Assembly (NCBI GenBank): GCA_905250025.1
Contig: CAJNOJ010000019.1
Span: 372,001-436,000 of the forward strand
Source: Adineta ricciae
Taxonomy: Eukaryota; Rotifera; Eurotatoria; Adinetida; Adinetidae
Reading direction: 5' to 3'
Length of the DNA stretch: 64,000 nt
Position numbers and translations under genes: made by a program. Within the stretch, counting starts at the first letter, position 1; the number at the start of each line of letters is the position of its first letter. The notes under the pieces are model-generated. The model did no database searches. It was given only the letters and a program-made list of their open reading frames with translations, and had not been told where the DNA came from. Of this stretch, positions 18,059 through 52,420 are shown piece after piece.

Positions 18059-20781
18059 AAAGTTCGTTTTTGTCTACTATCATTTGTTATCTCCTGGAAA
18101 GTACAGTGAAAAGTTGAAGATAATACGTCATATGAGCGATGACGCTTTCCTTCAACTGAAAATTTTCTATTCATGAAGAAAACCTGTGGTGTGAAATATT
18201 TTTTTTGCATTATTTCTTTTAAATATATGTTTTGTAGTTGTGAAAGACGAAAAAAAATCACTATTTACTATTAGATAAACAATCCATAATCAATCATCGC
18301 ACCAAATGTTTAATAACAAGGTCTGTAGTAAAAAAAAATCGAATGTTTATTTTGAGAACAGTAATTAAAGAAAATGGAAAAATAAAATACATCGATATTT
18401 ACGAGTCAATCAAAGATAAAAAAATCATTTAGTTTTTTTTCTAAACACTTTAATCAATCGAAGAATAATATTGATCGAATACAAGGTCGTTTGCTTTTTC
18501 TCTCCGCTGTCTCTCGTAGTCGATGTATACATGTATATTCAATTACATGCACTAGACAACGGGATTCTGTTTTGAAAATACAAAAGCGTTTGCATCGAAT
18601 GTTTTTCTTTCTGTTCTAATCGAGTTGTTTGTTTATTGTCAGTTACGCTTTGTTAAGCAGATGGCGACCGATGATAGAAAGTGTAAAAAACATGTATCGA
18701 CCATCTCATATCATACATATTTATTTCTTTTTCTAATATCAGGGAGACACGCACGGTGAGAAAAGGTAATTTGTGATGCGATATGAAGAGTCACCTGTAC
18801 ATCGTATTCGCCCGTCCTGCTATTGATCGGTAAATAGGACGCAAGAGTGGCAATAGAGCATTGGTGTTCTACCTCACTGCTAATTATTGAATTTGAATAT
18901 GATTCATTACTTGCCATTGATGTTTCGATAGAAATCCGAGTAAAAATTTCGTTGCCTGAAAGCTTTGTTGAAGTGTATGTAAAGGAGAAAAGTATGCTGA
19001 TGGTAAAAAGCCGATTGATGAAAGCGTATTTTGCTGGATTCTCTGATATCCATTGATCAATTGAAAGCTGACTGGGTACATCCGTGACTGAAATGTTAAT
19101 GTCTGAGAAAACTGATCTCTGTTGGCATGTAGGAATAGATTCTGCGTTTGTGTAATTAATGAGTACGAGAAGAGTACTCCGATGTTATGATTTCATTAGA
19201 AAATTTCCAGATGATCGATCGATTAATGAATTATTCTATTGTATATCTCACATATGGAGTAACTACAGTAAATACAATAACCATTGGCTTTGCCTTACTG
19301 ATTAGAATCCCACAGTTTTCTTGGAAAACTTGACATACTGACACGTCTATTGAGAATTTGCCTAGGTTTCGGTGATAGAATGTAGTTTTACGACAGGTCG
19401 TGAAAGCAAACTGATTGTATACGAGCACTTCAGCTTAGCAATCAAATATTTAGTTTACTGGACCATTTGCATCCAGGTAAATAAACGAAATTTGCACCTG
19501 ATTAGTCTTCTTTCAGTTTAACAAAGCCCCATAAGACTCCTAGATGGCAGAATGACATCAATCAAAACTTTCACTACACCCGGTTTCCTTGTTCTTAAAC
19601 AGGAAACTCGATACGTTTTGCATTCTGCGTTCTTTATCTCCCGGTACGTAAACTACCAATGTGCCATTCTCAGCATAGACTCGACAACTGTCTGTTTCAA
19701 TCTATGAGAACTAACAAAATGTGATCATTTCGTCTACATTAAATTCTCGATGAATATTCTCATATAGATCACAAGGTCAAGATTGAATCACCACTCGTAA
19801 GGAACAGATGTCTTAGGTTAGGGTAGAAATTTTGAGCGGTGATACATGCCCTTCGAAATATACAGCGACCTCCACCGTCCAGCGAGATTGGCTGGGCGAC
19901 AACTCCAGTGATGAAATGAAAATTTTATTCATCTTTTCTTTCTTTCCTTTGATAACTTTCTCTTTCAACAGTCAACTTATTTTATATTACTTTTTTACAC
20001 GAAAACCTCCAAATCAATACTACTTATTTGTATCAACAGTCATATTTCCCATAAGAAAACTTTTCTGTCTCTCTCTCTCTCTTTCCATGATAATAACAGC
20101 TGCTGTGCTTCACTGTATCGATCAAGTATATGTATATTTAATCATAAAAAGTCTAAACAATTACATATGCTTTGTCATCAGTCTTCTTCATCTAAATTGA
20201 TCTATATACAGAACAATTCATTTGCCTATTATGATCGACAATTGATAGCTGAATATAGAGTTACATCATTTTGTTGATGTGAGGAAGGAAAAGAGAAGAA
20301 GAAGAAGACAAACTTGTTCATCTTCATCACTTTTTATCCTCTCTAGACACAAAGTATACGTGCCTTTTCCTCCCCGTCTCTTTTCCTCTCTTCATATCTC
20401 TTTCTTTGTTCTACTAACAGTAAATAATAGACCGAGCATATTGCATACATTTTCTAATCACATTGTATGCAAACTATAGGACGCGAAAGAATAAATGAGA
20501 TGAGAAGCATGTCGATGTACACTGACCGAAACGAATAACAATGTGTGCGACTATGACCATCATTAAGAATTCTTCAATTCTTTGCATGTTGAGTAAGCTT
20601 AGTTCTTTGAATGAGAGTTATTCTACACAATGTCAAATGTCAATAGGCAAGAGCAGACAGAAAGGAATTGATTTCTGAAATGATTTTCTTTCATAAAAGG
20701 CTTTTTTTTAGATTTAGTTGTGCCATACATTTCCTATCGCTTGGTACGAAGGAAAAACGCTATGACGATCGACATTGTTCG
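18059..20781. other. Long intergenic stretch with minus-strand coding remnants
   Basis: About 2.7 kb between FAM78 and the RSKR-type kinase. The part 18711-19890 contains protein-like minus-strand frames, listed separately. The rest (18059-18710 and 19900-20780) is AT-rich, with pyrimidine runs near 20069-20084. Plus-strand frames here have no domain. Confidence 0.5.
18711..19890 (-). pseudogene. Coding remnant of an unrecognised, possibly secreted protein
   Basis: Several minus-strand frames read as protein. One runs from about 19160 down to 18711 without a stop and includes SDINISVTDVPSQLSIDQW, ISSEVEHQCSIATLASYLP and GEYDVQVTLHIASQ. A second, near 19270-19430, includes TTFYHRNLGKFSIDVSVCQ. 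A third, near 19590-19700, includes ENGTLVVYVPGDKER. A fourth, near 19840-19910, includes SQSRWTVEVAVYFEGH. The beta-rich, cysteine-bearing style suggests an extracellular protein. I could not join the pieces by convincing splice sites, so this is either a decayed gene or a fast-evolving one with unusual exon structure. Function unknown. Confidence 0.33.
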
Positions 20782-26990: not shown

Positions 26991-29900
26991 ATGAAAACAC
27001 AAGGTAATACAGATGCTCCTATTATCCGTTCAGGTGCGCGTATACGTGAAAGTGTACGATGTTTACCGAAAGGACATTTTCAACAAATTCGACAAATGTT
27101 CGACAAACAATCGTCATCGTGTATTGGTATGACAACTCTTTCGACCATTCACGAGCGACGTACAGAAAAAACGAAATCATCAATTTTACTGCAATCATCC
27201 GTTACTGATGATGAAAAATTGCAACATTCGATTTTACATCAGACTGATGATAGTATGGTGGAAGAAAATGATCTTTTTCATTGTCCAGTATTGCATTCCA
27301 AGCTTGTAAATAAAGGTAACCGAAAGAACCTATTTTGTTTTTCGAAAATAGATGCAATCATCTGTTTAAATGTCAGCGACATGTTTTATCTCACCTCGTA
27401 AATCATCAGAGGCCAGTGCGAACAGCCAAAAAAATAAGAATGGCAACGAGAAGAAAAACAAGATGAGAAAAGATATAGAAGGTCGACATTTCCTCGCGTT
27501 CTTTTTTTTTCTCACGAAATTCGAGTAGTTCGATTGATCATCATGATCATCATTCGAGAAAAGAATCCGAAGAACGTCGGAGAAGAGTAAACATTCGAAT
27601 AGTGTAAGATAATAAAAACAAAAGAAGAAGAACGACAAAGGCCATGAATCGAATAGGTATCTAGTCGGTAAGCAACATCGATATTTCATTAGTCATTCAT
27701 CCACCTACACATATTTCAATTCATCCTTCTCATATATACTTCTTTTTTCTCGAGTTTTTATTTAGTAACACATACATGTAAGCCAGTCATAAATGTCGAT
27801 TTCATGTTTTAGACACACTTTTATATACAGCATTCGTACCACAACAGATCATCTTGACTACTGAACGTGAAAAATCAGATCAACGACGGCAATTAGCTAT
27901 GGCTGCTGCTATTAACTATGCCGATAGTTACGAACTGTCGCCCACATCGAAGTCGTTCAATCGGATTGGTAGTACACGTCAATATGTAGCTAGCTTACAA
28001 CGAGGTTCAACTGTCAGCGCAAAGCCAGTGCTGGTCAAAGCAAGTGCGATACATTCCCAACCCAATGCGTCAATTATATACGATACAAATAGCGAATTAT
28101 TTCAATCAACAAAACGACTTCAATCTTCGGCGTCCCTTTCATCCACAGGTTACGATTCGAATTCGTCGCCATCAATAGTTTCCAAACGAAATTCGTTGGC
28201 AACTAATCATAGTATTGATTTTTCATCGTCTAGTGACGAACGACAACGATTACAGCCCTGGGTAAGATTAAATACTTTTACCTATTCAAATATAATCTTC
28301 TCTATTAATATTGCTGTATAGATATTATGCGAATCCGAGCTTGGCACACCTGCACTGATTGTAAATTCCTATTCGAGCGATGAGGTGTTCGATAGTCCTT
28401 CAATGATTAGCCGTGCACATATTAAATTAAACCATTCACCTACCTCAACTCTTGAACGTCGTCCGGTCTCGGTCATTCGTCATACATCGATTCGTAATTC
28501 ATCAGTGCTCAATTCTCCATCGATCTCCTCAACATCTTCATCTTCATCAGCAAAATACATTGTTCAAACAACGTCGTTTCCTGAGCACACGTCCAACAAT
28601 GAAGATCGATGTTCTTCATTGAATAGAAAACATACATTACGTTCAACTGGCTCAACCGGATTTCAAATTCAGCGAAGCCCATCCATATACAGCCCCGTTC
28701 TCGTGCAAAAGCAAATTAATGACCGAGAAGAGAGTCCGCTACCCGTTGTGGAAAATCCTCTATTTCAACAAGTACCACCCAATAAACCACCACGTACATT
28801 CGAACACGAAACTCGATATGGTCATTTGTCAACAACCATCGATCAAAAAGTGCCTTCGTCCGCATCGTCATCATCTACCACAAGTGATTCACCTACATTT
28901 GATCTCGGTAAATTTTAATCGCCTACATCCTCTTTTTTTTGTCGCTTATAAAGTTCTTGATGTATCCAAATATAAAACTTGATCATAATCATAGCCGTCT
29001 ATCAATTGAATTACATTTTTTTCTATTTTTCAATTCTTAGGTGCTCGTTCTGTAAGTTGTATGGATTTGACTGCAGGTGTTTCAAGTGCTTTGTTATCGA
29101 GTGGCCTTCTTGCATTAGACAAACAGTGTCTCCATACGGATCAGTCAGCTGACATCGTGCCCGATGAAAATATCTACGAAGAATTAAAAACGCCTTTACC
29201 TACATTAACAAGAGATGATGGTGAACAATTTCAATTCCATACTAAACGTGCACAAACAATGAAAACTATTTCGTGTGAAACGCGTTTTCAAGCGCCAATT
29301 CCTAAACCAAAAACAAACCGACCTTTCGCCAATATCAAATCTGCGATGAAGAAAGGTGTCAGTGAACCTAACTTAGCCAAAAGCAAAACGGCATCGTCAA
29401 CATTCTTTTCACCGCGTGGTTTAATCAATCGTTTCAAACGAATTCTTCCATTATCATTGTCCAAACAATCCTTGAATGATAGTCATGCAGTAACCATCGA
29501 TAGTGATGATTCTGGAAGTACAACATCAGAAACCACTGATGATATCCGAACATCTCGTTTGGATCACGTCAGTCGGGTACGAAATGTGTACGATACTCTA
29601 GGTAAATATTAGGAAATCCCTTCTTTCTATGTAATACTTTGTTCTACATAGGTTCGGGAAGTCATTTGAGTAGTCTCTTTGCTGAATTGAATCATTTCAC
29701 AGCTGCAAATGAATTGAAAACATTGTATGATTATGTAGTACATATTTTACCTGAACAAGAACTTGGCTATTTTGCCAATGGAACTGGCTGTCTCTCATCA
29801 TCAAACTTAAGTACTGATTTTTCACTTCACACATCGACTCCTATTCGCTTCAAATACCCATTGGACGCAAATGATGAATCAACATTGAAATACTTCTGTT

Positions 29901-31186
29901 TTCCCGATCAACATGATTCGAACAACAATCACTACCATCAGAACACTAGTTCAATCCTATCGCCCAAGCGACCACGACCGGAATATTTCCGTTTTACCTT
30001 AACAGATATGCGCGGATGTCGAAAACATGGTTATTGTTCGCGCTTTATTCATAAAGGTATTCTGAATGCATTGTGTATTATCTCTCCATGTGATATGATG
30101 GATTTATACGAAAAAATCCTTTCCACGGCAACAGAATTATTTCTTTTATATAAAGAAGATGATGCGAAGAAGTTTCTCAAAGAAATCTATCCACATCGAT
30201 TACCTAGTCGAGGTGATACAATACACATCCATACAACGACAGTTGGATTGTACGGCCTCAAATGTGAACATGATCGACGAAAACAACTGATTGATTCTGC
30301 TGGATTATTGAATTTATCTACCGGTATGTTAACAGAAATATAGCAAAGAAAAATATCATTGTTATTTTTCTTTCTCTTAGATACAATTATCAAAATCTTC
30401 TCGTCGATTCTCTACGAACAAAAGTTAATCTTCATCAGCGACGAACTCGGACCCTTGACACGCTTGATCAACACATTTATATGTCTTCTTTATCCATTTT
30501 CTTGGCCACATACATATGTTCCAATCTTACCAGCCTTGATGCTTGATGTTCTTCAAGCACCAACACCTTATATCATTGGTATTCTACGTTCCTGTGAGCA
30601 TTATCTCTGTGAAAACGATGAATTTTTATCTCAAGACAACTCGGATGTCCTTATTGTTGATATTGATCATGATCATATCTATTCCATTAATGATTATCTT
30701 CCGAATGAATCCACTCGCAGTTCATTTGATAATCTTCAATCTCCATTTTCTCAATATCAAATCCTTCCGAAGATTTTCAAAGTCGAACTCAAACAAGAGA
30801 TTTCATTCTTACGAAAGAATCGACAAATTCTTTCGTTGGACGAATGTCAACAACGTTTACGAAATATATTCATGTCAATCTTTGTACAATCTTGTTATAA
30901 TTACAAAGATTATTTAAAACAATCACTCGATTCCGAACATTTCATTCGATCGAAGCCGCGTACGATTGAATTGTTCTTAGAATGGTTTACACGAACACAG
31001 ATATTTGAATTATTCATTCGACAAAAACTGGATTCCAATAGTCAAAATCCATTTGCAATTACGTTCGATTTAGCCTGTGACAAATACCGCCGAACATTGA
31101 ATAAGTCAACACCACAACGCATCACAGCTAAATCTGTTAAACGAAAATCAGCTGGTAGAGCAAACAAACACGATCAACGTTTATGA
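26991..31186 (+). CDS. DENND2: DENND2-type DENN-domain Rab guanine-nucleotide exchange factor
   Basis: Predicted exchange factor for a Rab GTPase; vertebrate DENND2 proteins act on Rab9-type GTPases in endosomal traffic. Exons 26991-27315, 27813-28261, 28322-28907, 29041-29601, 29652-30323 and 30381-31186; 1132 codons. The first 600 residues are Ser/Thr-rich and probably disordered, with possible phosphosites and PPNKPPR-type proline motifs. The tripartite DENN module follows: upstream part with RPEYFRFTLTDMRG and HGYCSRFI, core with SSILYEQKLIFISDELGPL and YPFSWPHTYVPILPALMLD and PTPYIIGIL, and a downstream helical part with EWFTRTQIFELFIRQK. These match DENND2 rather than other DENN families. 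The first ATG after a splice acceptor was taken as start; further 5' exons are possible. Confidence 0.88.
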
Positions 31187-31799
31187 ATGCTACATAACAC
31201 ATGTGTATTTCGAAACTACTTAGTCAGATAAATTCGTTCTTTTCTTTGTGTAAATTTGCTTCTTTTTTTTTAAAAAATAATTTCGATGATCTATAACAGT
31301 CACTGATTGAATTACTAAATAAAAGCATTATATACCGTACACTGATTCTTGTAACATGCTATCCGAGTTCCTTCATATCAGGTAAATACACTAGTTTTCG
31401 AGCCCTTACTAACATTGTTCGAATATTTCGTCTGTCTACAATTATGTATTACTATTGACGGCAGAATGAATCAATACAATTCATGCTCGATATAATCATT
31501 GCGTTTAACGATCTATTCTAATTGACTACATGTTCTCTTTTTATTGTCTTGTTTGATCACACTATACACGGTTAGCTGAAAAGTTCGTCAAGATTCGTCT
31601 CTAGTTGCCTTTTATATACTTAGTGGGCAATAGAACAAGCAAAAAAAATATTTTTTCCCTGTGCGGTAAAAAATGCGAGTATCTTCGCTGATTGTAACGA
31701 AGCATAAATAGACGGCGTACTCTATGCATTCAGCAAGGTTGTCCTTTTTTCTTCCTTTTTTCTTCCTTTTTTCTTCGGTTTTGTGGATAGAGCACGGCT
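31187..31799. other. Intergenic stretch upstream of the sugar cluster, with core promoter candidate
   Basis: About 610 bases between DENND2 and the glycosyltransferase gene. CATAAATAG near 31703-31711 is a TATA-like element about 90 bases before the proposed ATG. TTCTTCC repeats lie at about 31747-31776. I see nothing coding. This is the only sizeable gap before the three-unit cluster, so any shared promoter should be here. Confidence 0.45.
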
Positions 31800-34700
31800 A
31801 TGCTAAACAAGGAGACGATGCTCTGCGTTACCAGGTAACTACGGATCTCGTTTTAGATGTTATATACCTAGAGTACACACATTCTATTCTTTAACACGAT
31901 GAGTCGTTTTTTTGCTAAATACAGAGAAATACGACGGGTGTGTTTTTCTACTTCAACTATCAGAAAGCCATCCGTTTTATTGGTGAATCATGGTTATCCA
32001 CCATTATTCAACGCAGGTTCGGAGGTATGCATACGATTTTCCTAGTCACGGAATTGGAAATTATAATTAAATTCAGGTTTACACGCAAACACTGGCTGTA
32101 CGATTGAACCGATCGGGAAAAACATCTAGTGTATCTGTTATATCTCGTGAACAAGATCCGTTTCGAGCGGATTTTCTCGTCAGACAGAGTCAGGACGAAC
32201 ATGATCCAACTATACCCGTCTATTATATTAATCATGCACGAGAAGCAGCCTATCAACGTTTCGTCAATACAGATATTGACCATTGTTTCGAAGATATCTG
32301 TAAACAAATAAATTCCAAACCAGATATTGTTCATTTTGGCCATTTAAATCATTTATCATTAACATTACCACAACGTGCACGAGACATAGTAGGAGCAAAA
32401 ATCCTATATACACTACATGATTACTGGCTTATGTGTCCACGTGGACAGTTCTTAATCAATGGCGTTGCTTCAACGTTCAATAACAGGCAACCTTATGAAT
32501 TATGTAAAGAACAAAAGGATGAGAAGTGTGCTACGAATTGTTTCACATCACGTTTCTCAACAGGTAATCACTTTTGATTTGATACAATAGTATCCCGTGA
32601 GGCAATTGTAGGCACAACAAAAAATAAAGATCGTGAAACAGAATATTGGACATGGTGGATCAATGAGCGAATGCGCGCAGTGCGAGAAGCTTGTGATGCA
32701 ATCGATATGTTCATCGCTCCTTCAAAACATTTACAGAAGCGATTTATTGAAGAATTCGGATTGCCATCTGAAAAAGTGAAATTTTTACCATATGGTTTTG
32801 ACCACTCGATACTAACTCATCGCCGACGTATCCGCCAATCCGATGAACCCATTGTTCTTGGATATATCGGACGCCATTCACCATCGAAAGGTATTAATTT
32901 ATTGCTGGAAGCAGCACAGCAAATTGTTCAGTCTCAACCAAAACTTGCTGGTCGATTCTCTCTTGCTATCTATGGTCGACCGGACCCAGCTACTACTGGC
33001 AATCTTCAAACTATGGCTAAAGCTGCAGGAATCGCTGTTGATTGGCGGCCTGAATATAAAAATTCTGAGATTGTCGATCGTGTTTTTAATCATGTCGATT
33101 GTATCGTTGTTCCATCTATATGGGAAGAAAATTCGCCTTTAGTTATTCATGAAGCACAGCAATGCCACGTACCTGTAATTACTGCAAATATAGGTGGAAT
33201 GGTAACATTGTTTTGTGGGGTTTCATTTTAGAGATCATTTCTATTTTCTTCAGAGTGAATTAGTCAACGATGGAGTGAACGGATTGACCTTCTCACATCG
33301 CGATGCTTCATCACTGGCTACTGCTATCCTTCGAATTCTTCAACAACCAAATATTCTCGATAAGTTAGGTCAACATGGATACTTGTATTCTAAATATGGG
33401 CAGGTACCATCGATCGAAACACATGTTGATGAATTAATTAAGATCTATTCAACATTGACAAATAATCAGCCTAAACCGATCAAACAATTACCTGCTCCAC
33501 GTCGAATAACATTTGATACAAATCCGGATGATTGCAATTTTAGTTGTATCATGTGTGAACAGCATTCAGAACATTCACCACATCAAAAAGCGCGTATAGC
33601 AGCCAAGATTCGTCGTCGTAGAATGGACTTCGATATCATCAAAGAAGTTGTTGCTGAGACAGCATCGCTTGGTTTACAAGAAATTGTAAGGAAAAAAACC
33701 CACTGTTACCGATCCTACGATGGAGCATAATCAATTTCGTGTCTGTATATTCAGATTCCATCAACAATGGGCGAGCCATTGATGTATCGTGATGTTAAAG
33801 GTCGTACATTCGAGGATATTATCAAGCTGTGCCGAGATTATAACATAAAACTGAATCTTACAACGAACGGATCGTTTCATTCTCCTCAAGGTCATTCTGG
33901 TATGTGTAAATGTTTTCATAAATCTTACTAGAACAGCCTATTTCACTTTTAACATCAGTTTCGGAATGGGCTCATCTACTCGTACCAGTTTTGAGTGACG
34001 TGAAATTTTCCTGGAATGGAGTTACGAAAAAAACTCAAGAACTAGTCATGAAGCATTCAAAATACGATAGACAAGTATTAACTGCTATGTTTGCAAGATA
34101 AATATGTCAATTCGATTACCTTTTCTAGTTGGACAATATCAAAAAATTTATTCAGATACGTGATCAATTAGCAGAACAAAGGGGAAATCGAGCAACAGTT
34201 ACACTGCAATTAACTTTCATGGAAATCAACTTGCCTGAAATTCCCGAGGTAATTTATGAAAAAGAGACACTTTGAGGACATCGCAGAGGCTTGTTAAACG
34301 TTTTTCTTGAGATGAAGATACTGAAATAATGTCAAAATTCAATATAATTCTAATAGATTGTTAAACTTGGAATCTCACTGGGCGTTGATCGTATCAAAGG
34401 TCATCATTTATGGGCACATTTTCAACAGATCAAAGATCAGAATCTACGTCGATCAAGTGATGCTATTCGCAGATGGAATCAGTGTGTAGTTGAGTGTCAA
34501 AACATTGCTCGTCAACAACTACTGCCGATAGGAAAACAAGTTAGACTTTTCTATCCATCGAATGCAGAAAAAGTCTTTTTCTGGGATTCTTGATTTTAGA
34601 TTAAACTTGAAAATTTCTTCGAATTGGACGAAAATAGCGGCTCAGCAACAATTCATCCTCAGAGTGTTTGCCCATTTTTAGGTAAAGAAGCGTGGATTAA

Positions 34701-34899
34701 TCATAGTGGTCGATTCGATCCTTGCTGTGCTCCCGACCAAGAGCGATTATCTTTGGGCTCATTTGGTAATGTTCAAAAACCAAATGAAGACATCATGAAA
34801 ATATGGAATGGGGATGCATACAAAGCGTTAATCAAGAATTATACTGACTATTCTCTTTGTCGAAATTGTAATATGAGAAAGCCACCTACTAATCCATAA
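31800..34899 (+). CDS. GT4 glycosyltransferase fused to radical-SAM/SPASM enzyme, bacterial type
   Basis: Two-part enzyme of bacterial style in a spliced gene. Exons 31800-31834, 31925-32024, 32077-32563, 32612-33201, 33254-33685, 33755-33899, 33959-34074, 34129-34248, 34357-34539 and 34600-34899; 835 codons. Residues about 30-430 are a GT-B glycosyltransferase of family GT4: VLLVNHGYPPLFNAGSEVYT, LHDYWLMCPRGQF, LGYIGRHSPSKGINLLLEA and the EENSPLVIHE acid pair. Residues about 490-830 are a radical-SAM enzyme with CNFSCIMC (CX3CX2C cluster motif), TMGEPLMYRD, and a SPASM-like end with CPFLGKEAW, RFDPCCAPDQE and CRNCNM. Donor sugar, acceptor and radical reaction are unknown. The N terminus (MLCVTREIRRVCFSTST) is basic and could be a targeting peptide. 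The ninth intron uses GTTAGA. Families secure; function inferred only from fusion and neighbours. Confidence 0.85.
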
Positions 34900-34955
34900 A
34901 TAAAATAAAATTCTTTTCTTTTCGTATTGATTTGTTGTCTTCGTATCAATTGTAG

Positions 34956-35894
34956 ATGTTAATCAACCGATTTCAACAAATAACTTTATCGAAGACTTGT
35001 ATTCGTCGGTACAAATGGACGTATTCGAAAGTATCGTCATGCGGTACACATCACATATGCTTAAACAAGCATCAACCATTATATCAAAATCGATTCCAGA
35101 GTGTATTGCCTTTTCATTCGCCTGGTTTAGCTCCAGTGATCGATCAAACCGGATCAGCATACCACATCAATGATCGAGGTGAAAGCGCTTATTCACAACG
35201 TTTCTCTCGGACATTTGGTTTCTATGAAAATCTTGCTGTTGTACAGGTTTGTTATATGAGAAACCTAAAAATCAAATCATTGTCAATACTTCATTAGAAT
35301 ACCGATAAATGGTATCACATCACACCGAAAGGATCAACTGCATATGACGCAGTCTGGCATTGGTGTGGTAATTTTCAATCAAACCGATGTCCGGTGCGAG
35401 ATTCAAACCTCCAATATTATCATATTGATCCTAAGGGAAACATCACCTCAGGTCCACACTCATACGCCGGAGATTTTCGAGAAGTAATTGTTTTCTTTGA
35501 ACTTACATTTAATTGTTTGTTAGATTTGTAGGGAAGTGCAGTTGTTCGCAGTTTAACTGATGGTCTTTTTCGTGCTATCGATGAAAATGGTGATCTACTG
35601 CATTCATTGTCGTCGTTATCATCTCACAAGACAAATTTTCTTGACCTTGATGTTTATCATAAGGGTTTAGCCCGAGCACGAGATGAAAATGGTTGGTTCT
35701 TTATTGATCGTAGTGGTAAAGACATTGGACAAGGACGTCGATATCGGCAAGTCGAGAATTTTTATAATGGACAAGCACTTGTACAGATGTTACACGATGG
35801 ATCTAGATGTATTATTGATGAAAATCATGAAATATTGAATCGATTACAAAACTGTGATGATGAGAATTGTGCTGACATCGAACAGGCAAAATAG
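34956..35894 (+). CDS. WG-repeat protein, bacterial type
   Basis: Exons 34956-35246, 35298-35483 and 35532-35894 give 279 codons; 35031-35099 could be an extra in-frame intron of 69 bases. From about residue 50 the protein is a series of WG-type repeats: SPGLAPVIDQTGSAYHINDR, FYENLAVVQ, NTDKWYHITPKGSTAYD, YYHIDPKGN, FRAIDENGDLL, GLARARDENGWFFIDRSG and ALVQMLHDGSRCIIDENH. Such repeats are common in bacterial proteins and rare in animals. The role is likely structural or ligand-binding; I know of no enzyme activity. The ATG directly follows an AG acceptor (TTGTAG) 56 bases after the upstream stop. A GC-AG intron from 35886 would join this gene in frame to the next, so the two may be one gene. 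Confidence 0.78.
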
Positions 35895-35941
35895 TTCCAG
35901 TTATAGTTTTTCCTTTTAATTACTATTCTTGGTGTTTTTAG

Positions 35942-38900
35942 ATGTCAAAAAGCTATTGGCCATCATTTGCCCTTAAACTAGGTTTAGAGCAGAAGACAAC
36001 CTTACTTGAAAAGGACGATGTATTGAATAATGATGATCAACAACAACTAAGAAAACAGATTAGACGAGTGTGGGATGAATTTGGGTTTATTAAAGAATCA
36101 TCTGCTGATGGAGAATATACTGTGACAAAACGTGGCCGTCCTCTCTTTGATACGAATAGTGTTATCCATGATCGAACTATTTATTGGTTGCAAAATAAAT
36201 TCATTTCCGGTTGGCTACCAAGTTTACGGGATCAGCATACAATATATGCGAATACTGATTACTTCTCTGATATTGCCGAAGATCCTAAACTTGTAAGTTT
36301 AACCCAAAGAGTACTCAATTCCTATGCTAAGCAAGATTGGCACGGAATTTCATCTGTACTTCCTGCTGAACTATTTCAGTCATCAACTATTGCTGATCTT
36401 GGTGGTGGTGTTGGCGCTTTATTATCTGAATTATCAAAGCATTGTTCTAATCAACGATTAGTCTGTATCGATCGTCCAGAAGTTATTACTTTGGCAGAAC
36501 CTCATGAAAAAATTGTGTTTCAAAATGGAGATCTCTTTTCTGGTCCATTGCCTTCGGCTGATTTTTATCTCTTATCGCGTGTTCTGCACGACTGGCCGGA
36601 TGACCAAGTAAAACAAATTTTGAATCGTATTCCATCGAAACATTTGTGTGTCATCGAACGTGAAGTTGATGCAAATCGCAATCATCATGCTCTTCTATCT
36701 TTACATATGTTTTTATTGCACAAAGCGAGGGAAAGGACTCGACAAGAATGGGATGATCTTTTTACATCAACAGGCTGGTCCGTTCAATCGCGTACGCCGT
36801 TCTCAGATCATTTAGTTACTGTTTTAAAGAAAGATACAATCAATACTCATATGCCAACGTTCTCATTTAAATCTGCTAATAAAACTATTCGTAAAGTTGT
36901 TCTACCTGCAGCTGGACTTGGCACGCGAATGCGTCCACAAAGTGCAATCATACCTAAAGTATTTCTGCCTATTACTCAATGCAATTCAACGAGATGGAGT
37001 TGCCGTCCGGCACTCGATCTTTTGCTTGAAGAGGTATTTGCCAAAGGAACTGATATCGAACAAGTTCTACTCGTTACCGCACCTGAACAATTACATCTAT
37101 TTCAGTCTTATCTTTCATCTTATCCGCGCGATAAAGTTGATTATGTTTTACAACAATCCCCCAAAGGATTCGGTCATGCTGTTCTTCAAGCTGAATCATA
37201 TATTAATGGTGAACCATTTGTTGTGATCTTAAGTGATCATCTTTACCAATCAAACAACACCGATCAGTCATGTTTAAGACAATTACTTACTGCGTATCGA
37301 CAGAACGTTCTCGAACCATTCTGCGTTGGTCTCACAGGTGTTATGTCGTGTACCGCTGACAAGGTTTCCAACACTGGCCTATTGCAATCAGATTCTTCAG
37401 TAAAGAATAAACGCTTTTTTCGAGTCACAGATATGATAGAAAAACCTTCGATCGACATCGCAATGAATCGTTTTCAAACTCAATTAGCTTACAATTCCTT
37501 CCTGTGTCAAGCGGGAATGGATATTCTTCCACCGACAATCTTTCAGTATCTTCGGCAACATCAACAAAAGTTAGAACAAGAAACAAAATCAGCTGAACTT
37601 GGCTTACGCGAATCGATGAACACTCTTCGACAGAACGGGCAATTATATGGTTGTATATTAGATGGTCAACGGTATGATATCGGTGATCCAAAAGAATATT
37701 ATCAGACATTTCGTGCATTTGCTATTGATAAAAAGGAACAACCGTGTCAGAAATCTCCTATTTCAAACGTATGGTCAATAGTACAACGGATTCACAAAGT
37801 ACGAATGGTGTTTGCTACGTCAAACGCACCAATATATAGTGCAAGTGCTCCCGGTCGATTAGATCTCATGGGTGGCAAGTAGAAAGGAATAGAATTGTTT
37901 TTCAGAATCTCTTTATTTTACTTCAGGTTTTGCGGATTACTCAGGTTCACATGTTCTTCAATATCCTATTGCACAACGTACATATGTTTTCATTCAGCCT
38001 TCCAATACAGGTGCCATAGATCTGACTAGCATTCAAGCAGATAGTATCAATGTTGAATCAGGCGATCAGAATAAATTAACGATATGGAATCGTGAGATTC
38101 CAATGAAGTTACTTTTTGACCATCAAAATCAATCCTTACGTACACGATTAGAAACATGGTATGATCAAGGAGAAGGAACTCCCGTTTCACAGGATGAACC
38201 AATCAATTGGCCAAGTTATGTGATTGGTATTTTAGCTGAACTGATTAAGAAAAGCGACAAAACACGTATTCCAGTTGGTTTCAATATTGTTGTCGTCTCT
38301 GATGTACCATGCAATAAAGGTGTAGCCTCATCTGCAGCTCTCGAAGTTGCTGTGGCAAGTGCAGGTAAATCTCAAACAGCGGCCAATGTCGTACTGATTA
38401 TAGTAAATGTTTCGGGTAATTTTAGCAAGTACATGCCTCAATCTCGACCATTGTATGTCGAAAACTGAACTAGCTTTACTTTGTCAATATGTAGAAAATC
38501 ATATTGTCGGTAGTGCGTGTGGGTTTATGGATCAAATGGCTTGCGTTCATGCTCGTGCTGATCATCTATTATCACTTGAGTGTCAACATTTACCCAATCC
38601 ACCATTCCACAATGTAACACTACCATCCAGTATTCAATTATTCGGTATAGATTCCGGTGTGAAACGATCAACAGCTGGCTCAGCGTATCGCCGAGTACGC
38701 ACAGCTACTTTTATGGGTAAACAACTGTTAAATCTCCCAGATGATTATCATCATCTATGTCAAATGGCCCTTTCGAGATTTAATAATCAATACCGATTAC
38801 AGTTACCAGAAAAACTGATTGGCAAAGAGTTCCAGTCGTCATTGCATCTTGATTCACTAAGTAAAATAGACTCAAATGAAATTTATCCAATACGCGCTGC

Positions 38901-39294
38901 TACGGCTCATCCAATTGAAGAAAATTTTCGAGTACAACTTTTTGAACAATTACTGGCCGATCATCATGAGCCATCTTCTCAAACTCTTGCTAATCTTGGC
39001 GAATTAATGTTTCAAGCCGATGCTAGTTACCGAGCATGCGATCTGGCTAGTGATGAAACAAATTTACTTGTAGATTTGGTACGACAACGATCATCAGCGA
39101 ATATCTTATTTGGAGCTAAAATTACAGGGGGCGGCGGTGGTGGAACAGTTGTTGTACTCGCTCACAGATCATCCGAAGCACTCGAAGCTGTGCACGATGT
39201 CGCTAGACAATATGAGAATATGACTAAACGGCAAACTCGTATTTTTTCAGGATCATCCTCAGGTCTTGTCACATATCCTTCGATTGAAGTATAA
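35942..39294 (+). CDS. O-methyltransferase / sugar nucleotidyltransferase / GHMP sugar kinase fusion
   Basis: Three predicted enzymes in one chain. Exons 35942-37874, 37927-38364 and 38426-39294; 1079 codons. Residues about 1-295: O-methyltransferase with a dimerisation-like start (SYWPSFALKLGLE), AdoMet site DLGGGVGALLSEL, CIDRPEV, NGDLF and HDWPDDQVKQIL. Residues about 315-600: nucleotidyltransferase with VVLPAAGLGTRMRPQ, then PKVFLPI, GFGHAVLQAE, ILSDH and YDIGDPKEYY, as in GalU-type enzymes. Residues about 630-1079: GHMP kinase with SAPGRLDLMGGFADYSGSHV, PCNKGVASSAALEVA, GSACGFMDQMA and ITGGGGGGT, close to the L-arabinokinase/galactokinase branch. Kinase plus nucleotidyltransferase suggests sugar to sugar-1-phosphate to NDP-sugar, as in fused salvage enzymes; methylation could act on the sugar or the acceptor. 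Intron 37875-37926 begins with GC (GCAAGT); a GT alternative breaks the conserved frame. Substrate unknown. Confidence 0.85.
37875..37926 (+). other. GC-AG intron inside the GHMP kinase motif
   Basis: A 52-base intron with donor G|GCAAGT and acceptor TTCAG. Removing it restores LMGGFADYSG, the conserved first GHMP motif. The nearby GT at 37879 would shift the frame. Confidence 0.75.
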
Positions 39295-41814: not shown

Positions 41815-43192
41815 ATGAAAAATAAAAATAATCATCGCGTTGATGAGTTGATCATTTTCATTATACGCAATGGTTTCGCACGAATTATCATGTCTGTACT
41901 ACTTGTCGTCTGTTACGCGCGAGCAATCTGTGAAAAACAACAGTTGTGGATACTATCTAATTTGTGTTATATCGGACTTGGATATCTGATTATTGATTGG
42001 TGGATTATTCTACTGAAAATTCACGTGCATCGACGAGTAGTCGAGTATTTTTGGATCAATTCAGGAGTTGCTATATTCATCATGTGTAAGTGACATGAGG
42101 AAAAGATCACGGTAACCTATACTGGAAACATTGTTAGTTACAATGCCGCCACTGTGGTTCTTGCGATATGCATACTTCATTCAATCAGTCAAAGATGATA
42201 AATTACAAGCAAGTCAGGCTGAGATGAACTTGGAATCGTATGTTAAAACATGTTGGCATTTGAAAGAAAAGAAACAATTGCATTTAATGGAATTTCAATA
42301 TGCGCCGATCAATCAAACGTTTTCTACAATTCAAGCAATAAATAGTACATGTGATCAAGAGGAGAATATGGATTGGTGTGCTGATGGTCGGTGTTTGATG
42401 AAGCAAATGCCTGATGAGGTGTTAGAACAAGTTATCGTACTTAGTAGTATTTGCTTTCGTTGGTAAATAGGCTCATGTGTTCATCATTCGTATAGAAAAG
42501 AATTGCTGTTTCTGTGTGGCCAGGATGATTACTGGTAACTTGGGTCTTGATCAACTGATTACATATTTCATTTCGACGGCTTCCGATATTGTCGAGTAAA
42601 TATCTCTGACGATCTATTTCCAGTCACATGATGACGTTTTATTCGATAGTTTCGCGTCAACAATGGTTGGACAAAGCGAACAGCTGATTCAAAATAAAAA
42701 TAGGAATGTCATGAAAGCTATTATTGGTATATCTGTGTTCCGTACTACTCATATCAACCTGCTTTCTGTCATACTATAGCTGCTTATTTCATATCTTTGT
42801 CACAATTCAGTGTAAACTTATCTGGTAAACGAAAACATGACCATCGATATGACATTATTAAGTGGTCGAAAGCCACTATTCGTGAACGATTAGCTATCGT
42901 TATTGATTTTGTGTTCGGTACTGAACTATGGGGTATTTTAACACAAATGGCAACCGAGGATGGGCTTCTACTCTGTTTACGTATTGTTGTCGTCATCAGA
43001 TTCGATGCAAGTACATTGGAAAATCTGTTTTTCGTCATGAAGAACATACTGACAATTGCAATCTTCACATATTACGCAGCTGCGATCTCGGATTGTTATA
43101 TTCGACACCGCTATCGTTATCAACGATATTTTAAAAAACAACAAGCAATTCTATTTCGCGATAGTCTCAGCATAGAACCGATCACGAGATAA
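41815..43192 (+). CDS. TMEM26: TMEM26-like multi-pass membrane protein
   Basis: Homologue of vertebrate TMEM26, a multi-pass membrane protein without known biochemical activity. Exons 41815-42085, 42138-42458, 42496-42595, 42650-42726 and 42780-43192; 393 codons. About eight hydrophobic segments. Landmarks aligned from memory with human TMEM26: the N-terminal IIRNGFARIIMSVLLV, TMPPLWFLR (human IVPSLWLLEL), DQLITYFISTASDIVE (human DQLSQLLLMFVGTAADILE), and FGTELWGILTQMATEDG followed by LRIVVVIRF and VMKNILTIAIF (human [22 protein letters not shown]). The second intron uses a weak GTTGGT donor, chosen because only that phase gives conserved text on both sides. The next gene starts 157 bases downstream on the same strand. 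Confidence 0.8.
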
Positions 43193-43349: not shown

Positions 43350-46162
43350 ATGGTTCAAAGTTAGACAAACGATTCTTTTCCTTGTAGAAGTATGATTTTC
43401 TTTGTTTTCTAAGGTCCTGTAAAAATCGGCGTTCTCGAACGAAAAGAAAGCCAAACGAATGGAACTATCACCCATAAAGAAAGTAAACCATCGCTCTCGA
43501 TATCCGAAAACCATGAACATAACGTCAAAGTTTCTCCACGTGAGAATTTCTGTTTATATTTATCGTTAACAATTGGTTCACTTGGTGCTATCTTTGGTGA
43601 TATCGGTACAAGTCCGTTGTATGTTATGCATACAATTTTTGCGGAAAATCCTAGTCCAAAACGAGAACAATGTATTGGTGCCGTGTCATTAATTTTATGG
43701 AATTTAATTATTGTTGTAACAATAAAATATTCCGGATTTATCTTAATGGCAGATAATCGTGGTGAAGGTGGAGCGTTTGCTCTCTGTGGACTATTAACTG
43801 GAGAAAATAGTCGACTACGTGCTCGTGCTAAACATATTATTAGTATTATCTCGATTTTTGCTGCTTCTTTATTGATTGGTGATGAACATTCGTTGATGAT
43901 CGTTGCAATTACTGTTTATTTTGATTTTAGGTGACGGGGCGCTAACTCCAGCTATCAGTGTGCTATCGGCAGTGGAAGGCTTAGCAACAACTTCCGTCGA
44001 ATTGCGAAAATGGGTTTTACCAATCACAGTCTTGATCATTATCGGTCTATTCGTTGTACAAATGTTTGGTTCAGGAAAAATTGGTAGACAGAGCCTCTTA
44101 TTAGATAGTTGTCTTCATTTTCATCATGATTAGGATTGATATTTGCGCCGATAATGTTTTCTTGGTTTGTTGTCCTGTGTTCTATCGGTATTTGGCGTAT
44201 TACATTCGAGCCAACGATACTTCGAGCATTCAACCCATGGGAAGCGGTTAGTTATTTAATTCGAGAAAAACGAAAAGGATTTCTTCAGCTCGGTAACGTC
44301 AATGACACATAGAATTCAGACATCTTATGTTCTCTTCTTCAGGTGGTGTTTTTTTGTCACTAACCGGTGTTGAAGCATTATATGCCGATCTAGGTACAGA
44401 AATTTCGCTTCAGATTATAAAATATATCATCGGGTCTTCTTAGGACATTTTGGTCGATGGCCAATACGAACAAGTTGGTTATGTGTTGTTCTACCATCAG
44501 TAATGTCAAACTATCTCGGTCAAGGAGCATTGTTAATGCAACACCCAGAAGCAATTTCGAATCCATTTTATAATGCTGCTCCCAAATGGGCTCGCTGGCC
44601 ATTGATCGTTCTTGCTACAATAGCAACTGGTAATCGGATCTGAACAGAAATTCATCTCTATGCCTGTTTGATTTATTCGTAGTTATTGCTTCTCAAGCAA
44701 TTATCACAGGTGTCTTCTCACTGCTAAGCCAGGCGACAGCTCTTGGTTTCTCACCACCATTACGAGTCATCCATACGAGTAAGAAAGTTATTGGACAAAT
44801 TTATGTTCCGGTAAGCAAATCGGTTCCTATGCTTATCATCTGATAAGTACAGATTCGTTTTTAAGGCTATCAATTGGGTGATTATGCTGATTACGATATC
44901 AATCACTCTATATTTTCGTACTAGTGAGCACTTAGCGCATGCCTGTAAGTGAATAATCCGACAAGACTTTCTCCGATTGTGTAAATTGTACTGTGAATCT
45001 TATTAGATGGTGTTACTGTGTGTTCTGATATGCTGATCACAACAATACTCTACATGTGTGTGATACGTTACGTCTGGAAACGTCATTGGATTCGTTCTGC
45101 TCTTTTCGGTCTATTTCTATTCATTGATGGTTTCTTTCTCTCCGCCAATGCTGTTAAATTCTTCGAAGGTGGATGGGTTGCTTTAGTGATCGCTATATTC
45201 TTTTTTATCATTGGTTTTTCATGGTACTATGGTCAAACGTTACTTCGTCAATATCTGCATAGTTATGCGCAAACAACTGCTCTCTTCCAGTTACCTACTC
45301 GTCTTGGCTTTCCAAATGTAACAAGCGCAGCGATTGTAGAAACAAGAAATGAAGAATTAGAACGATCAAAAAGTTTACCATTGGAACGCCAATCGACTGT
45401 AACTGATTCAGACAATGGACGTCGAACAATACCAATCATCAATATACTCCCACCATCGGCCACTCTAACGAACGACGAAAGGAATGAGAGTCGTTCGTCA
45501 TCAACTAGTCCGACACAGGAAAACTTATTTCGAACAAGTTTAACTGGCCATGTGACGTTTACAGTCACACCTGGCCTTGGCATTTTTCTTACCACGTCAT
45601 CAAGACATACACCGCACGTTTTTGAACGTGTTCTTGCACGTGTGCATGCCGTACGTAGACACGATAAAATCTTTCTTTGTATCCGATGCGGTTGTCTCTT
45701 GTAGCTCCCAGAAGTATCCATATTTTTAAAATTAGAATATGCTCGTATTCCGGTTGTCGACATTGGTGAACGGTTAAAAATGCAGAAGTATGGGTCGGAT
45801 CAACGATATTTTTATCATATCACCGCACGTTATGGTTATTCGGAACATAAAGTTCATCTTCTCGATATGTAAGTTAATAGAACATCTTTGTTCTTCAATG
45901 AACATGTCGTTTTCGTTTGTAAAAACCTAGTTTGGAATTATCTGCGAAGGAATATAGCATTCCTGTGCCTGAAAGTCGGAATATCACATTTTTCATTCCT
46001 GCAATTAGTATTCGAGTCGTCCGAAAGGGGTGGCGAGTTCTTCCAAGTAAACTGATCTTATGCATTTATTCATTCTTAAAAAATAGTTTTCCATTTGGTC
46101 AAAGAAATATTCACTTATCCCCGGATCATACAGTTAGTGTTGGAATGGTTGTACCATTATAA
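43350..46162 (+). CDS. KUP: KUP/HAK/KT-family potassium transporter
   Basis: Predicted K+ uptake transporter (K+/H+ symport in characterised members). Exons 43350-43359, 43414-43878, 43931-44083, 44134-44292, 44343-44393, 44444-44629, 44683-44810, 44866-44944, 45007-45650, 45705-45868 and 45931-46162; 756 codons. About twelve hydrophobic segments. Family signatures: [134 protein letters not shown] and [12 protein letters not shown]. Insert 45290-45530 codes a Ser/Thr-rich cytoplasmic segment of about 80 residues. This family is widespread in bacteria, fungi and plants and, to my knowledge, absent from most animals, so transfer is likely, followed by intron gain. The 10-base first exon (MVQ) is provisional. 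It ends 109 bases from the convergent SET gene. Confidence 0.87.
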
Positions 46163-50734: not shown

Positions 50735-52420
50735 TTAAAGCTTGAAAACGGCGATATATTCCAAATAATACGATCCAAAATAAAGATGGTCATTATACTC
50801 AGTGACTTGGGATGTGGAAGGAACAACCAGACCTTCTGCGTCTTGTAATGAACGAACGATATGTCTATTGTCTTTATCAACTTCAATAATAAGCCCATGT
50901 TGTGGTAATCTTCTTTGTATTTTTTTCAACGCTCCAGGTACAAGCTAGAAAAAAAGCAACGAACCCTTTTTCGTTAAAATGAAGAAATAAATCAATCATC
51001 ATGCTTACCGAAAGTAACGTGCGTAATCTTGGCCAATTGCGTAAACGATCTAATATACTTGGCTGATCTTGATGGCGAATACCTGCAAAGGCAATCCAAT
51101 AGTTTCCACTGCTGGTTAACCGAATGTTGTCTGGAAGACCAGGTAAGTTATCAATGAAAACTTCGCTTTTTCCTATCTTGGAACTATCACCGTTAATCCA
51201 ATGCCGAATAACCCGAGCTAATGTCGTTTCACACACTAATACTGATTGCTTATCGACAGATAGTTGAACACCATTTGGAAAGGCAAGTTGATCATCAAGA
51301 ATACGTACTTTACCCGTTTCAAGATCAAAACGAATCAATCTACATGATAAAGTCAGTTTTTATGCAAAAAAATGAAACCGAATCGATGAATAAATTCACC
51401 TTCCACGAGGACTTGCATGCATTAGAACAGACATAAACTCTTTTCGTGGATAAAGCCAGTCAGAATCAGTAAAGAAGAGATAGCGTCCCTCAAGTACATC
51501 AACATCATTCACAAATTTCAATGGACGTGAACCAAAGCGTTGATCATCTGCGCTGATCAATCGAGTTAGTTTCTCTAAAACAGATAATGACCATACTTTG
51601 AGATCAAAGTAGATAATTGAACATACTTGTTTTAACATTTAATTTAAATAGACCGTGGTAAGCTTGCACAACGATAAGTTCGTCATCAGACAGACGACGA
51701 ATACCCAAAGGACGACCACATACATGTTCTAAATTGTCTTTTCCTAAATAATACAATTGATTATACCGGAGAATAATGATTCGCTGATAATACCATACCA
51801 CAAGTGAGCAAATGATCGTCAATACTGAGAGATGAATAAACAACGCGAGTTTTTCTTGTTACCGGGTCAAGTTCAATGATAGAGCCATTCTTTAGACCAG
51901 TGTACAGCATACCTAAAATTGATTTTATGTAACAAATTAGAAAAATACAATTGATTGAAGTCTACCATTCAATGGTTCAATCGATTCTGGTCCTTCACCA
52001 ACATAGATTCGTTCACTATGAGCAAGAAAGTCATTCACAAGTAATGGTGCACCATCCATCGTTGGCAACGAAGCTGGAAAGCTAATCGAAAACAATACTC
52101 AATAAATATTTTTATCTTTTACTCTTCACTTACTGTTTTGTCATGTGATCCTCATGAGGCAATGCGAATTGTATGTAAGCTAACAGAGCTAACATTGCAA
52201 TCGCGATAACAGTCAGCGCTACTTGTCTAAACACGAAGAAAACAAGATCTATGCCAGAGTTCAAATTTCCTTCGAAAAATTCTTACGATAATGGTATTGA
52301 CGGTTGTCGACGGGGCCGACGATCATCTGGATCAATCACAATACCTCGCTTACTATCATCTTCTGTAGATTGATAAATTGCTTCGTCAACTCGTTTACGC
52401 TGACGAACATTTTCGGTCAT
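50735..52420 (-). CDS. APMAP: APMAP-like (strictosidine synthase-fold) membrane protein
   Basis: Homologue of adipocyte plasma membrane-associated protein: a type II membrane protein with a six-bladed beta-propeller of the strictosidine-synthase/paraoxonase type and reported arylesterase activity. Exons 52287-52420, 52134-52226, 51966-52081, 51799-51912, 51627-51743, 51400-51574, 51009-51339 and 50735-50944; 429 codons. A basic cytoplasmic start (MTENVRQRKRVDEA) precedes a helix (VALTVIAIAMLALLAYIQF). Propeller landmarks: YTGLKNGSIIELDPVT, CGRPLGIRR, AYHGLFKLN, FVNDVDVLEGRYLFFTDSD, FPNGVQLSVDKQSVLVCET, LPGLPDNIRLTSSGNYWIA and YFGSYYLEYIAVFKL. Length and order match APMAP (human 416). First gene of the minus-strand array. 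Confidence 0.9.

Follow-up and report, generated by a model that had tools for sequence, protein, structure and literature searches.

Our analysis revealed a two-gene cluster of bacterial-type enzymes in the genome of the rotifer Adineta ricciae, within a window of 64,000 nucleotides, which is the whole stretch of DNA analysed. Its domains, splicing frame, gene order, bacterial relatives and conserved catalytic residues are directly observed, and these sequence features support the transfer of a ready-made bacterial operon into the animal genome. Horizontal transfer into bdelloids is already known. Taken as a whole, the cluster is, in our judgement, fairly probably explained best by operon transfer, a later addition of a nucleotidyltransferase (NTP) and GHMP kinase half, and a specialised glycoside pathway. 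We infer the substrates and product of this pathway, as well as the expression of the cluster.

The first-pass annotation had described bacterial-type domain families with spliced introns between animal genes; Pfam searches, stop-free splice models and the DENN and Tmem26 flanks bear this out. A domain search of the 64-kb window identified DENN, TMEM26 and innexin genes as the animal neighbours: a uDENN/DENN/dDENN gene upstream (29606..31183, +; open stretches only), Tmem26 downstream (42704..43189, +; PF09772, 4e-12; a single open stretch) and an innexin gene (62817-63443; domain match 2e-29). The two genes contain 12 spliceosomal introns, or 13 if that at 35886-35941 is counted, and their spliced frames are free of internal stops and can be aligned to bacterial homologues, which lack introns. 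The introns, described earlier as about 50 bases long, are indeed short, with a range of 48-108 bp across the models. Codon usage of the cluster correlated at 0.89 with 1853 nearby codons, assumed native; for four gene sets from bacterial cassettes the correlation ranged from -0.6 to 0.63. The bacterial style of the families was corroborated by bacterial relatives (173 for the radical SAM enzyme, of which the best 80 were kept). Spliceosomal introns, animal flanks and bacterial relatives, features of horizontally acquired genes, are thus present together.

Gene 1 (31899..34899, +) encodes, in the spliced model, a GT4-radical-SAM/SPASM protein of 832 aa with nine exons (31899-32024, 32077-32563, 32612-33201, 33254-33685, 33755-33899, 33959-34074, 34129-34248, 34357-34539 and 34600-34899) and eight introns, all GT-AG and 48-108 bp long. 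Pfam identified Glycos_transf_1 (1e-26), Radical_SAM (1e-9) and SPASM (1.5e-9). The GT4 glycosyltransferase domain (31959..33484, +; three introns) retains 75 of the 80 residues that are at least 97% invariant among 95 bacterial rows, and five near-invariant residues are replaced. The radical SAM (rSAM) core with SPASM/twitch (33485..34896, +; five introns) carries CxxxCxMC, MGEP and the SPASM/twitch cysteines; its CxxxCxxC motif and C-terminal cysteines place it in the SPASM/twitch group by sequence. Compared with 45 bacteria, it keeps 80 of 81 invariant and 34 of 41 nearly invariant residues. Its predicted model (pLDDT 92.6) matched the folds of SuiB, SkfB, BlsE, viperin, DesII and BtrN in Foldseek.

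The 56-bp gap between the genes (34900..34955, +) contains an AATAAA-type A-rich stretch, then TTGTAG immediately 5' of the ATG, possibly a polyadenylation signal and a trans-splice acceptor. The accessible portion of PMC12460157 shows no precedent for trans-splicing in bdelloids. Joining gene 1 and the WG unit into one gene was rejected because the candidate donor, judged by eye, would delete the conserved final CxxC. Both proteins have basic N-termini (7 K+R and 1 D+E in 24 residues; 6 and 0 in 30), which may be mitochondrial presequences; the N-terminal helical moment was not raised, as high a value being reached by 796/2000 and 1019/2000 shuffles.

The second gene (34956..39294, +), an inferred single gene, would encode a WG-methyltransferase-NTP-GHMP protein of 1356 aa from exons 34956-35246, 35298-35483, 35532-35885, 35942-37874, 37927-38364 and 38426-39294; the joined frame has 1356 codons and no stop. 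Three units had originally been counted in the cluster. All of their domains are present; units 2 and 3, however, are probably one gene, giving two genes, because in bacteria the WG and methyltransferase (MT) domains usually come in a single protein (MT is present in 60 of the 78 WG ORFs). They would be joined by a GC-AG intron (35886..35941, +; CAG/GCAAAA...TTTTTAG/ATG). The spacing at this joint is the same as in the animal in 15 of 17 aligned bacterial WG-MT proteins; the other two are longer ahead of it, L047 by 1 residue and L080 by 4. Without the intron, a TAG stop lies at 35892-35894 and a separate gene would begin from the ATG at 35942. Counter to a single gene are the weak residue similarity right at the joint, six residues missing from the animal 18 positions past it, and a donor that is not a strong GC-AG consensus.

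The WG-repeat domain (34956..35885, +; WG_beta_rep, 1.2e-9) contains two GT-AG introns of 51 and 48 bp and retains 35 of the 37 residues that are at least 97% invariant among 102 bacterial rows; two near-invariant histidines are changed to A and F. For a bacterial relative, the predicted structure is a beta-propeller-like repeat (pLDDT 97.7). The Methyltransf_2 domain (35942..36856, +; 6e-27), which lies with the NTP domain in one shared long exon, has an intact SAM motif, DLGGGVG, and LHDW. The SAM motif is like that of the animal in 11 of 17 aligned bacterial WG-MT proteins and unlike it in six (L001, L004, L005, L008, L028 and L047). Among solved structures, this domain is closest to small-molecule O-methyltransferases, CalO6 and MmcR for example; methylation of the sugar itself, as proposed at first, is a tentative reading.

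The same modules form a conserved cassette in bacteria. GT4, rSAM and WG lay on a single strand and in the same order in 84 of 85 loci, 81 of these retrieved by rSAM alone, and the order that the first annotation had suggested looking for was thereby found; the window shows this defining arrangement too, with GT4 first, rSAM/SPASM next and WG last, all on the same strand. The loci span Proteobacteria, Myxococcota, Chloroflexota, Planctomycetota, Chlamydiota, Cyanobacteria and others, and include insect, tick and other intracellular symbionts; examples are Sorangium, Hormoscilla, SAR202, Rickettsiales and three Arsenophonus plasmids (CP132904, CP132902 and CP132908), the last with full-length relatives at about 48% identity. 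An rSAM ORF was obtained in 79 of the 84 loci (37 fused to GT4, 40 adjoining it, 2 other or cut), and WG was the next ORF in 76 of these 79. Identity to the animal in the 40 best loci was about 40-57% for GT4, rSAM and WG, and 25-34% for MT where matched. Accessory, not universal, neighbours were an epimerase (58/97 loci) and a histidine phosphatase (53/97); in the 64-kb window, tblastn matches to both were at chance level only. Bacterial and animal copies are alike in modules, order and strand, with catalytic residues kept in the animal, whereas the bacterial loci are intronless, lack NTP-GHMP and often carry the epimerase or histidine phosphatase. At the end of one locus (L012) lie a GalU-like gene and a UDP-glucose dehydrogenase, which tie the cassette to UDP-sugars. 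In the main texts of the literature searched, we found no published description of the GT4-rSAM-WG/MT cassette. No report fitting rotifer radical-SAM transfer was found either, and rotifer transfer lists may include these genes unnamed; likewise, these texts gave no description of the combination in an animal, as the first annotator had believed.

The NTP-GHMP half is outside the bacterial cassette. It comprises a GalU-like NTP_transferase domain, a sugar-1-phosphate nucleotidylyltransferase by profile matches (36857..37741, +; 1e-13), and a GHMP sugar kinase (37742..39291, +) with a GC-AG intron at 37875-37926 (52 bp) and a GT-AG intron at 38365-38425 (61 bp). GHMP_kinases_N (9e-15), GHMP_kinases_C (1e-6) and the galactose-binding signature GalKase_gal_bdg (2e-7) are all present, an arabinokinase/galactokinase-type signature. 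The nearest solved chain, AbGHMP (9ulx), matched residues 630-1075 of the 1079-aa C-terminal unit at 2e-73 with GHMP motifs kept; the animal kinase differs in being fused behind WG-MT-NTP. In the cassette loci examined, GHMP had no match and NTP only one, the unfused gene in L012; the claim that this half belonged to the same acquired cluster is therefore not supported, nor is a single acquisition of all six domains. Searches for the fused pair used two queries, one without the first 33 residues of the other. Among the listed matches, NTP and GHMP did not occur at one place in 25 cassette genomes, 146 cyanobacterial genomes, 188 myxobacterial genomes or 201 Chloroflexota genomes, save for one Chloroflexota match (G1427) that reaches query residue 332 through two stops and was counted as NTP only. 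The best NTP match by E value was cyanobacterial (6e-26) and the best GHMP match, among the matches listed, was from Chloroflexota (43%), queries and samples differing between the searches.

The widespread occurrence of this exact order in bacteria supports the joint acquisition of GT4-rSAM and WG-MT, as first suggested. A shared pathway is likely for these modules because the cassette order is conserved, but the suggestion does not extend to the NTP-GHMP half. We envisage that a two-gene operon, GT4-radical-SAM/SPASM followed by WG-methyltransferase, would have entered the animal genome as an intact block, early enough for about twelve introns and a host-like pattern of codon usage to arise, the genes staying adjacent and in order. 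The GalU-like NTP domain and the arabinokinase/galactokinase-type sugar-1-kinase would have been joined to gene 2 either in a donor outside the sample or within the animal itself. Only bacterial rows were compared with the animal row, which has a long branch and shifts position between trees. In a 49-row tree it fell in a starred set of 24 rows, most of them proteobacterial, with Chlamydiota among the others; no single-domain tree places it in any starred set, and the nearest rows differ by domain. One tree, with a long-branch warning, put it beside Cysteiniphilum and Arsenophonus-type rows, and constraining the animal to a clade with six Rickettsiales rows gave a tree that was not rejected (p-AU 0.179). 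On these trees, and with a SAM motif like that of the animal kept in 11 of 17 WG-MT proteins and not in 6, an Arsenophonus-like donor may be one candidate among several.

BtrN (4m7t) is a SPASM/twitch rSAM dehydrogenase of butirosin biosynthesis; it resembles the animal rSAM in fold and, weakly, in sequence over the SPASM part (E 0.009), but lacks a GT4 fusion and reaches a TMq of only 0.46. BlsE of blasticidin S biosynthesis converts a glucuronosyl group to arabinopyranose (PMC3715490, in the part available). BlsE (7vob) shares the fold (TMq 0.67, TMt 0.70) and the CxxxCxMC motif, at 14% identity and unlike the GT4-fused animal enzyme; it was not listed in the sequence searches with rSAM, so the likeness is one of fold, and clear sequence homology to the BlsE/BtrN type was not found. 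Bdelloid biosynthetic genes of foreign origin featured in the accessible text of PMC11258130 (NRPS/PKS, RNA ligases and glucanases, with a proposed defence role) are, like the cluster, non-animal biosynthetic genes in an animal; the terms "radical SAM" and "glycosyltransferase" do not occur in the main text available. The Rickettsia buchneri aminoglycoside cluster is likewise a symbiont-borne sugar natural-product cluster, with genes including a PIG-L deacetylase, a BtrR/KanB aminotransferase and HemL (available parts of PMC8770908 and PMC6300072). As a parent system it was rejected, having other genes and, in those parts of PMC8770908 and PMC6300072, neither "radical" nor "glycosyltransferase".

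In the pathway we propose, a free sugar (a pentose, a hexose or a uronic sugar) would receive a phosphate at C1 from the GHMP kinase; the NTP domain would convert the sugar-1-phosphate to a UDP-sugar, and GT4 would move its sugar onto a small acceptor. The radical SAM enzyme might then oxidise, epimerise or decarboxylate the glycoside, in the manner of BlsE or BtrN. An O-methyl group would come from the methyltransferase, the WG propeller might bind or present the substrate, and the end product would be a specialised glycoside. More tentatively, and with real doubt, we suggest that the animal keeps a two-gene bacterial operon turning a self-made UDP-sugar into a radical-SAM-tailored, O-methylated glycoside, and that the cassette is an uncharacterised natural-product pathway recurring in endosymbionts and myxobacteria. 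If true, the product of the animal operon would be an antibiotic-like or protective compound.

Other origins of the cluster were considered. GT4-rSAM, WG-MT, NTP and GHMP might have been acquired separately and united in the animal by chance or selection, since NTP and GHMP are missing from the cassette apart from the one unfused NTP, best matches differ by domain (a cyanobacterium for NTP; Chloroflexota for GHMP among the matches listed, with differing queries and samples) and single-domain trees give differing nearest rows, none firmly placed. Independent rebuilding of the order and strand of 84 of 85 loci is, however, very improbable, and the MT-NTP joint lies within one long exon, as if inherited fused; we regard separate acquisition as unlikely. 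Contamination or an assembly artefact joining bacterial DNA to an animal contig would account for the purely bacterial families, but the 12 or 13 spliceosomal introns, a codon usage like that of the host (0.89) and the animal genes flanking both ends make it extremely improbable.

The function, too, may be read differently. Because the peptide-modifying SuiB and SkfB lead the Foldseek list, the rSAM substrate class may be peptide or sugar, and the enzyme might be a RiPP-type peptide maturase, with GT4 glycosylating the peptide and the kinase and NTP merely feeding the glycosyltransferase. The SPASM domain, a weak sequence match to YydG/EpeE (E 0.01) and NCBIfam matches, among the best 25 of 55, to families of rSAM-linked glycosyltransferases and maturases (every one scoring far below its cut-off) are in keeping with this. 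No precursor peptide gene was noticed, however, in ORF calling that covered at least 90 aa, the sugar- or cyclitol-acting BlsE, DesII and BtrN are in the same fold list, and in PDB sequences the rSAM profile matched BtrN alone at an E value of 0.01 or less; the chance of a peptide maturase seems to us small. Even less probable is pure salvage, in which only NTP-GHMP would be in use, recycling dietary sugar to UDP-sugar, the rest being a relic. FKP-type salvage enzymes have the same order, nucleotidyltransferase then kinase; FKP contains a fucose-pyrophosphorylase-family domain, and Pfam listed none in the window protein, giving NTP_transferase (PF00483) instead. The Leishmania arabinokinase/pyrophosphorylase, which makes GDP-D-arabinopyranose via the 1-phosphate, offers a precedent (PMC3347535, in the part available). 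The 80 of 81 invariant rSAM residues and the intact MT motif, however, are not expected of relics and disfavour this reading. We therefore favor operon transfer followed by the NTP-GHMP addition.

To our knowledge, transfers into animals have mostly been described as single genes. Here, a multi-domain bacterial operon in an animal has kept its order and catalytic residues, which makes the expression and retention of foreign pathways testable. Our study also brings to light a conserved GT4-rSAM-WG-MT cassette across several bacterial phyla that may make glycosides of a new class.

The region is best read as two plus-strand genes with 56 bp between them. Gene 1 (31899–34899) is split into nine exons by eight GT–AG introns (48–108 bp); its product of 832 amino acids comprises GT4, radical SAM (rSAM) and SPASM domains. 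About 120 bp 5' of the gene's start, an 11-bp unit (TCCTTTTTTCT) is repeated in tandem at 31742-31776, in 3.2 perfect copies. Gene 2 starts at 34956 and, if joined, encodes WG-repeat, methyltransferase (MT), nucleotidyltransferase (NTP) and GHMP kinase domains. Its WG exons run into a stop at 35892–35894 unless spliced; a candidate GC–AG intron (35886–35941) would fuse them in frame with the following ORF, giving 1356 stop-free codons, and a further GC–AG intron occupies 37875–37926. In bacteria, 60 of 78 WG ORFs also contain MT, and the animal spacing over the WG–MT joint equals that of 15 of 17 aligned bacterial proteins, with weak residue similarity at the joint. Because the join is in frame and stop-free, the bacterial domains mostly share one ORF, and the joint spacing is equal, we favor a single WG–MT–NTP–GHMP gene on sequence grounds. 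The introns described in the first-pass annotation are borne out; its three units are more likely two genes.

Ordinary animal genes had been placed on both sides, and we found a DENN-domain gene upstream, a Tmem26 gene downstream and, farther along, an innexin gene (62817–63443). The codon usage of both genes correlated (0.89) with that of 1853 neighbouring codons, which were assumed to be native and were drawn from open stretches that may in some cases include the ends of introns. Against bacterial stretches carrying the GT4–rSAM–WG/MT cassette, the correlations for gene 1 were −0.6 (Sorangium), −0.57 (Chloroflexota), 0.21 (Chlamydiales) and 0.63 (AT-rich Arsenophonus). Two open stretches at 43413-43931 (7e-32) and 44997-45701 (3e-18) match a KUP/HAK-type K+ transporter (PF02705), a family that is, to our knowledge, absent from most animals; located 4 kb from the cassette, they are a second candidate for horizontal transfer. 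A strictosidine-synthase/SMP-30-like stretch (PF03088, 6e-15) lies at 50886-51359 on the minus strand.

A tblastn search of plasmids with gene 1 matched 315 records, three of which covered most of the query: 20–21 kb Arsenophonus plasmids of louse-fly origin, with ~48% identity, in the order epimerase, GT4, rSAM, WG–MT, PhyH oxygenase, SHMT-like. On these ~20 kb symbiont plasmids (L001, L002 and L003), the cassette stands beside panBCE. With the rSAM alignment as sole query, a search of a collection of bacterial and archaeal genomes yielded 173 relatives; the best 80 of the 173 were retained and, with two loci from a viral collection and the three plasmids, make 85 loci altogether. The gene order sought in bacteria, GT4, rSAM, WG on one strand, was present in 84 of the 85, the sole exception being a distant match (L085). 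For 81 of the 84 loci the query contained neither GT4 nor WG, so finding both there counts as independent evidence. Among the 79 of the 84 with a called rSAM ORF, GT4 shared that ORF in 37, was adjacent in 40 and otherwise arranged in 2, and WG was the next ORF after rSAM in 76.

Of 103 loci examined, a few being the same genome twice, 97 had a called rSAM ORF. Genes for the following proteins stood within eight ORFs of it: epimerase (58 of 97), histidine phosphatase (53), ABC exporter (20), PhyH (19) and a threonine-aldolase-like enzyme (14). In phylum samples that each contain known carriers, the cassette was found in 21/282 Myxococcota, 6/116 Chlamydiota, 4/294 Planctomycetota, 1/398 Pseudomonadota and 1/244 Cyanobacteria; it is rare in the last two samples, as the starting genome was the only match. 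One cassette-bearing contig of the viral collection (L084) groups in the tree with a Phycisphaerales locus (L055) and is probably a bacterial contig filed among viruses. In a planctomycete locus (L031), WG lies six ORFs from rSAM, and a fusion at 11727-13580 joins a P-loop kinase domain with a tyrosine-phosphatase-like one. A Rickettsiales locus (L079, 12081-14079) also contains a lactate/malate-dehydrogenase-like gene together with one for an APH/choline-kinase-like phosphotransferase; this is how a gene for modification or self-protection might look.

Of 81 rSAM residues that never vary among 45 bacteria, the animal protein has 80, and of 41 that are nearly invariant it has 34. Of residues at least 97% invariant in bacteria, GT4 retains 75/80 and WG 35/37, with histidines at both positions lost from WG. 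The SAM motif of MT is intact, as in 11 of 17 aligned bacterial proteins (including Myxococcota, Chloroflexota, beta-proteobacterial and chlamydial loci), and degenerate in Arsenophonus and loci L004, L005, L008, L028 and L047. This difference argues against an Arsenophonus-type donor. With the motif apparently lost in L001, the Arsenophonus WG–MT protein may have a role other than methylation. In donor trees, whose comparison rows are bacterial, the animal sequence forms a long branch that in one tree, flagged with a long-branch warning, stands beside Cysteiniphilum and that shifts on change of model or rows; in single-domain trees it fell in no starred set.

The NTP–GHMP half differs. NTP resembles GalU, and GHMP resembles AbGHMP (9ulx, 2e-73), with a Chloroflexota relative at 43% identity among the matches listed. 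Bacterial cassette loci gave no GHMP match and one NTP match, in L012, where a GalU-like nucleotidyltransferase and a UDP-glucose dehydrogenase at the operon end past the exporter (18441-20647) would make UDP-glucuronate. Among the matches listed in bacterial genome searches, none spanned both NTP and GHMP, apart from one Chloroflexota match that extends beyond NTP through two stops. The proposal of one acquired cluster is supported for GT4–rSAM and WG–MT and not supported for NTP–GHMP.

Earlier work reports that bdelloids have acquired foreign genes and use them in biosynthesis (PMC11258130), and that Hydra has a foreign gene within an animal operon (PMC3273482). A search of PMC3499245, on bdelloid transfer, for six terms gave no match. 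Arsenophonus plasmids have been described for pantothenate genes, in passages that do not describe the cassette (PMC10654098), and our literature searches found no paper on it.

A bacterial rSAM model (pLDDT 92.6) matches the folds of SuiB, SkfB, BlsE, viperin, DesII and BtrN, a mixture of peptide-acting with sugar- or nucleotide-acting enzymes. Sequence matches were weak: BtrN (E 0.009) and, when the query was a single bacterial protein, YydG/EpeE (E 0.01) plus a few poorer ones. The nearest relatives of MT are natural-product O-methyltransferases. For a bacterial WG domain the predicted fold is a beta-propeller-like repeat (pLDDT 97.7), best matched by BamB and designed propellers; this prediction, with several histidines invariant across 41 bacteria, gives a hint that the domain binds a ligand or metal instead of serving passively as a scaffold. 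From these fold, sequence, MT and WG comparisons we propose that a sugar would be activated, glycosyl transfer would follow, and the product would undergo radical tailoring and then O-methylation. We consider this general scheme about evenly balanced between right and wrong, and any specific substrate much less probable. A glucuronate/arabinopyranose link is an attractive speculation, since BlsE performs a glucuronate to arabinopyranose conversion (PMC3715490), L012 has putative UDP-glucuronate genes and the kinase resembles arabinokinases.
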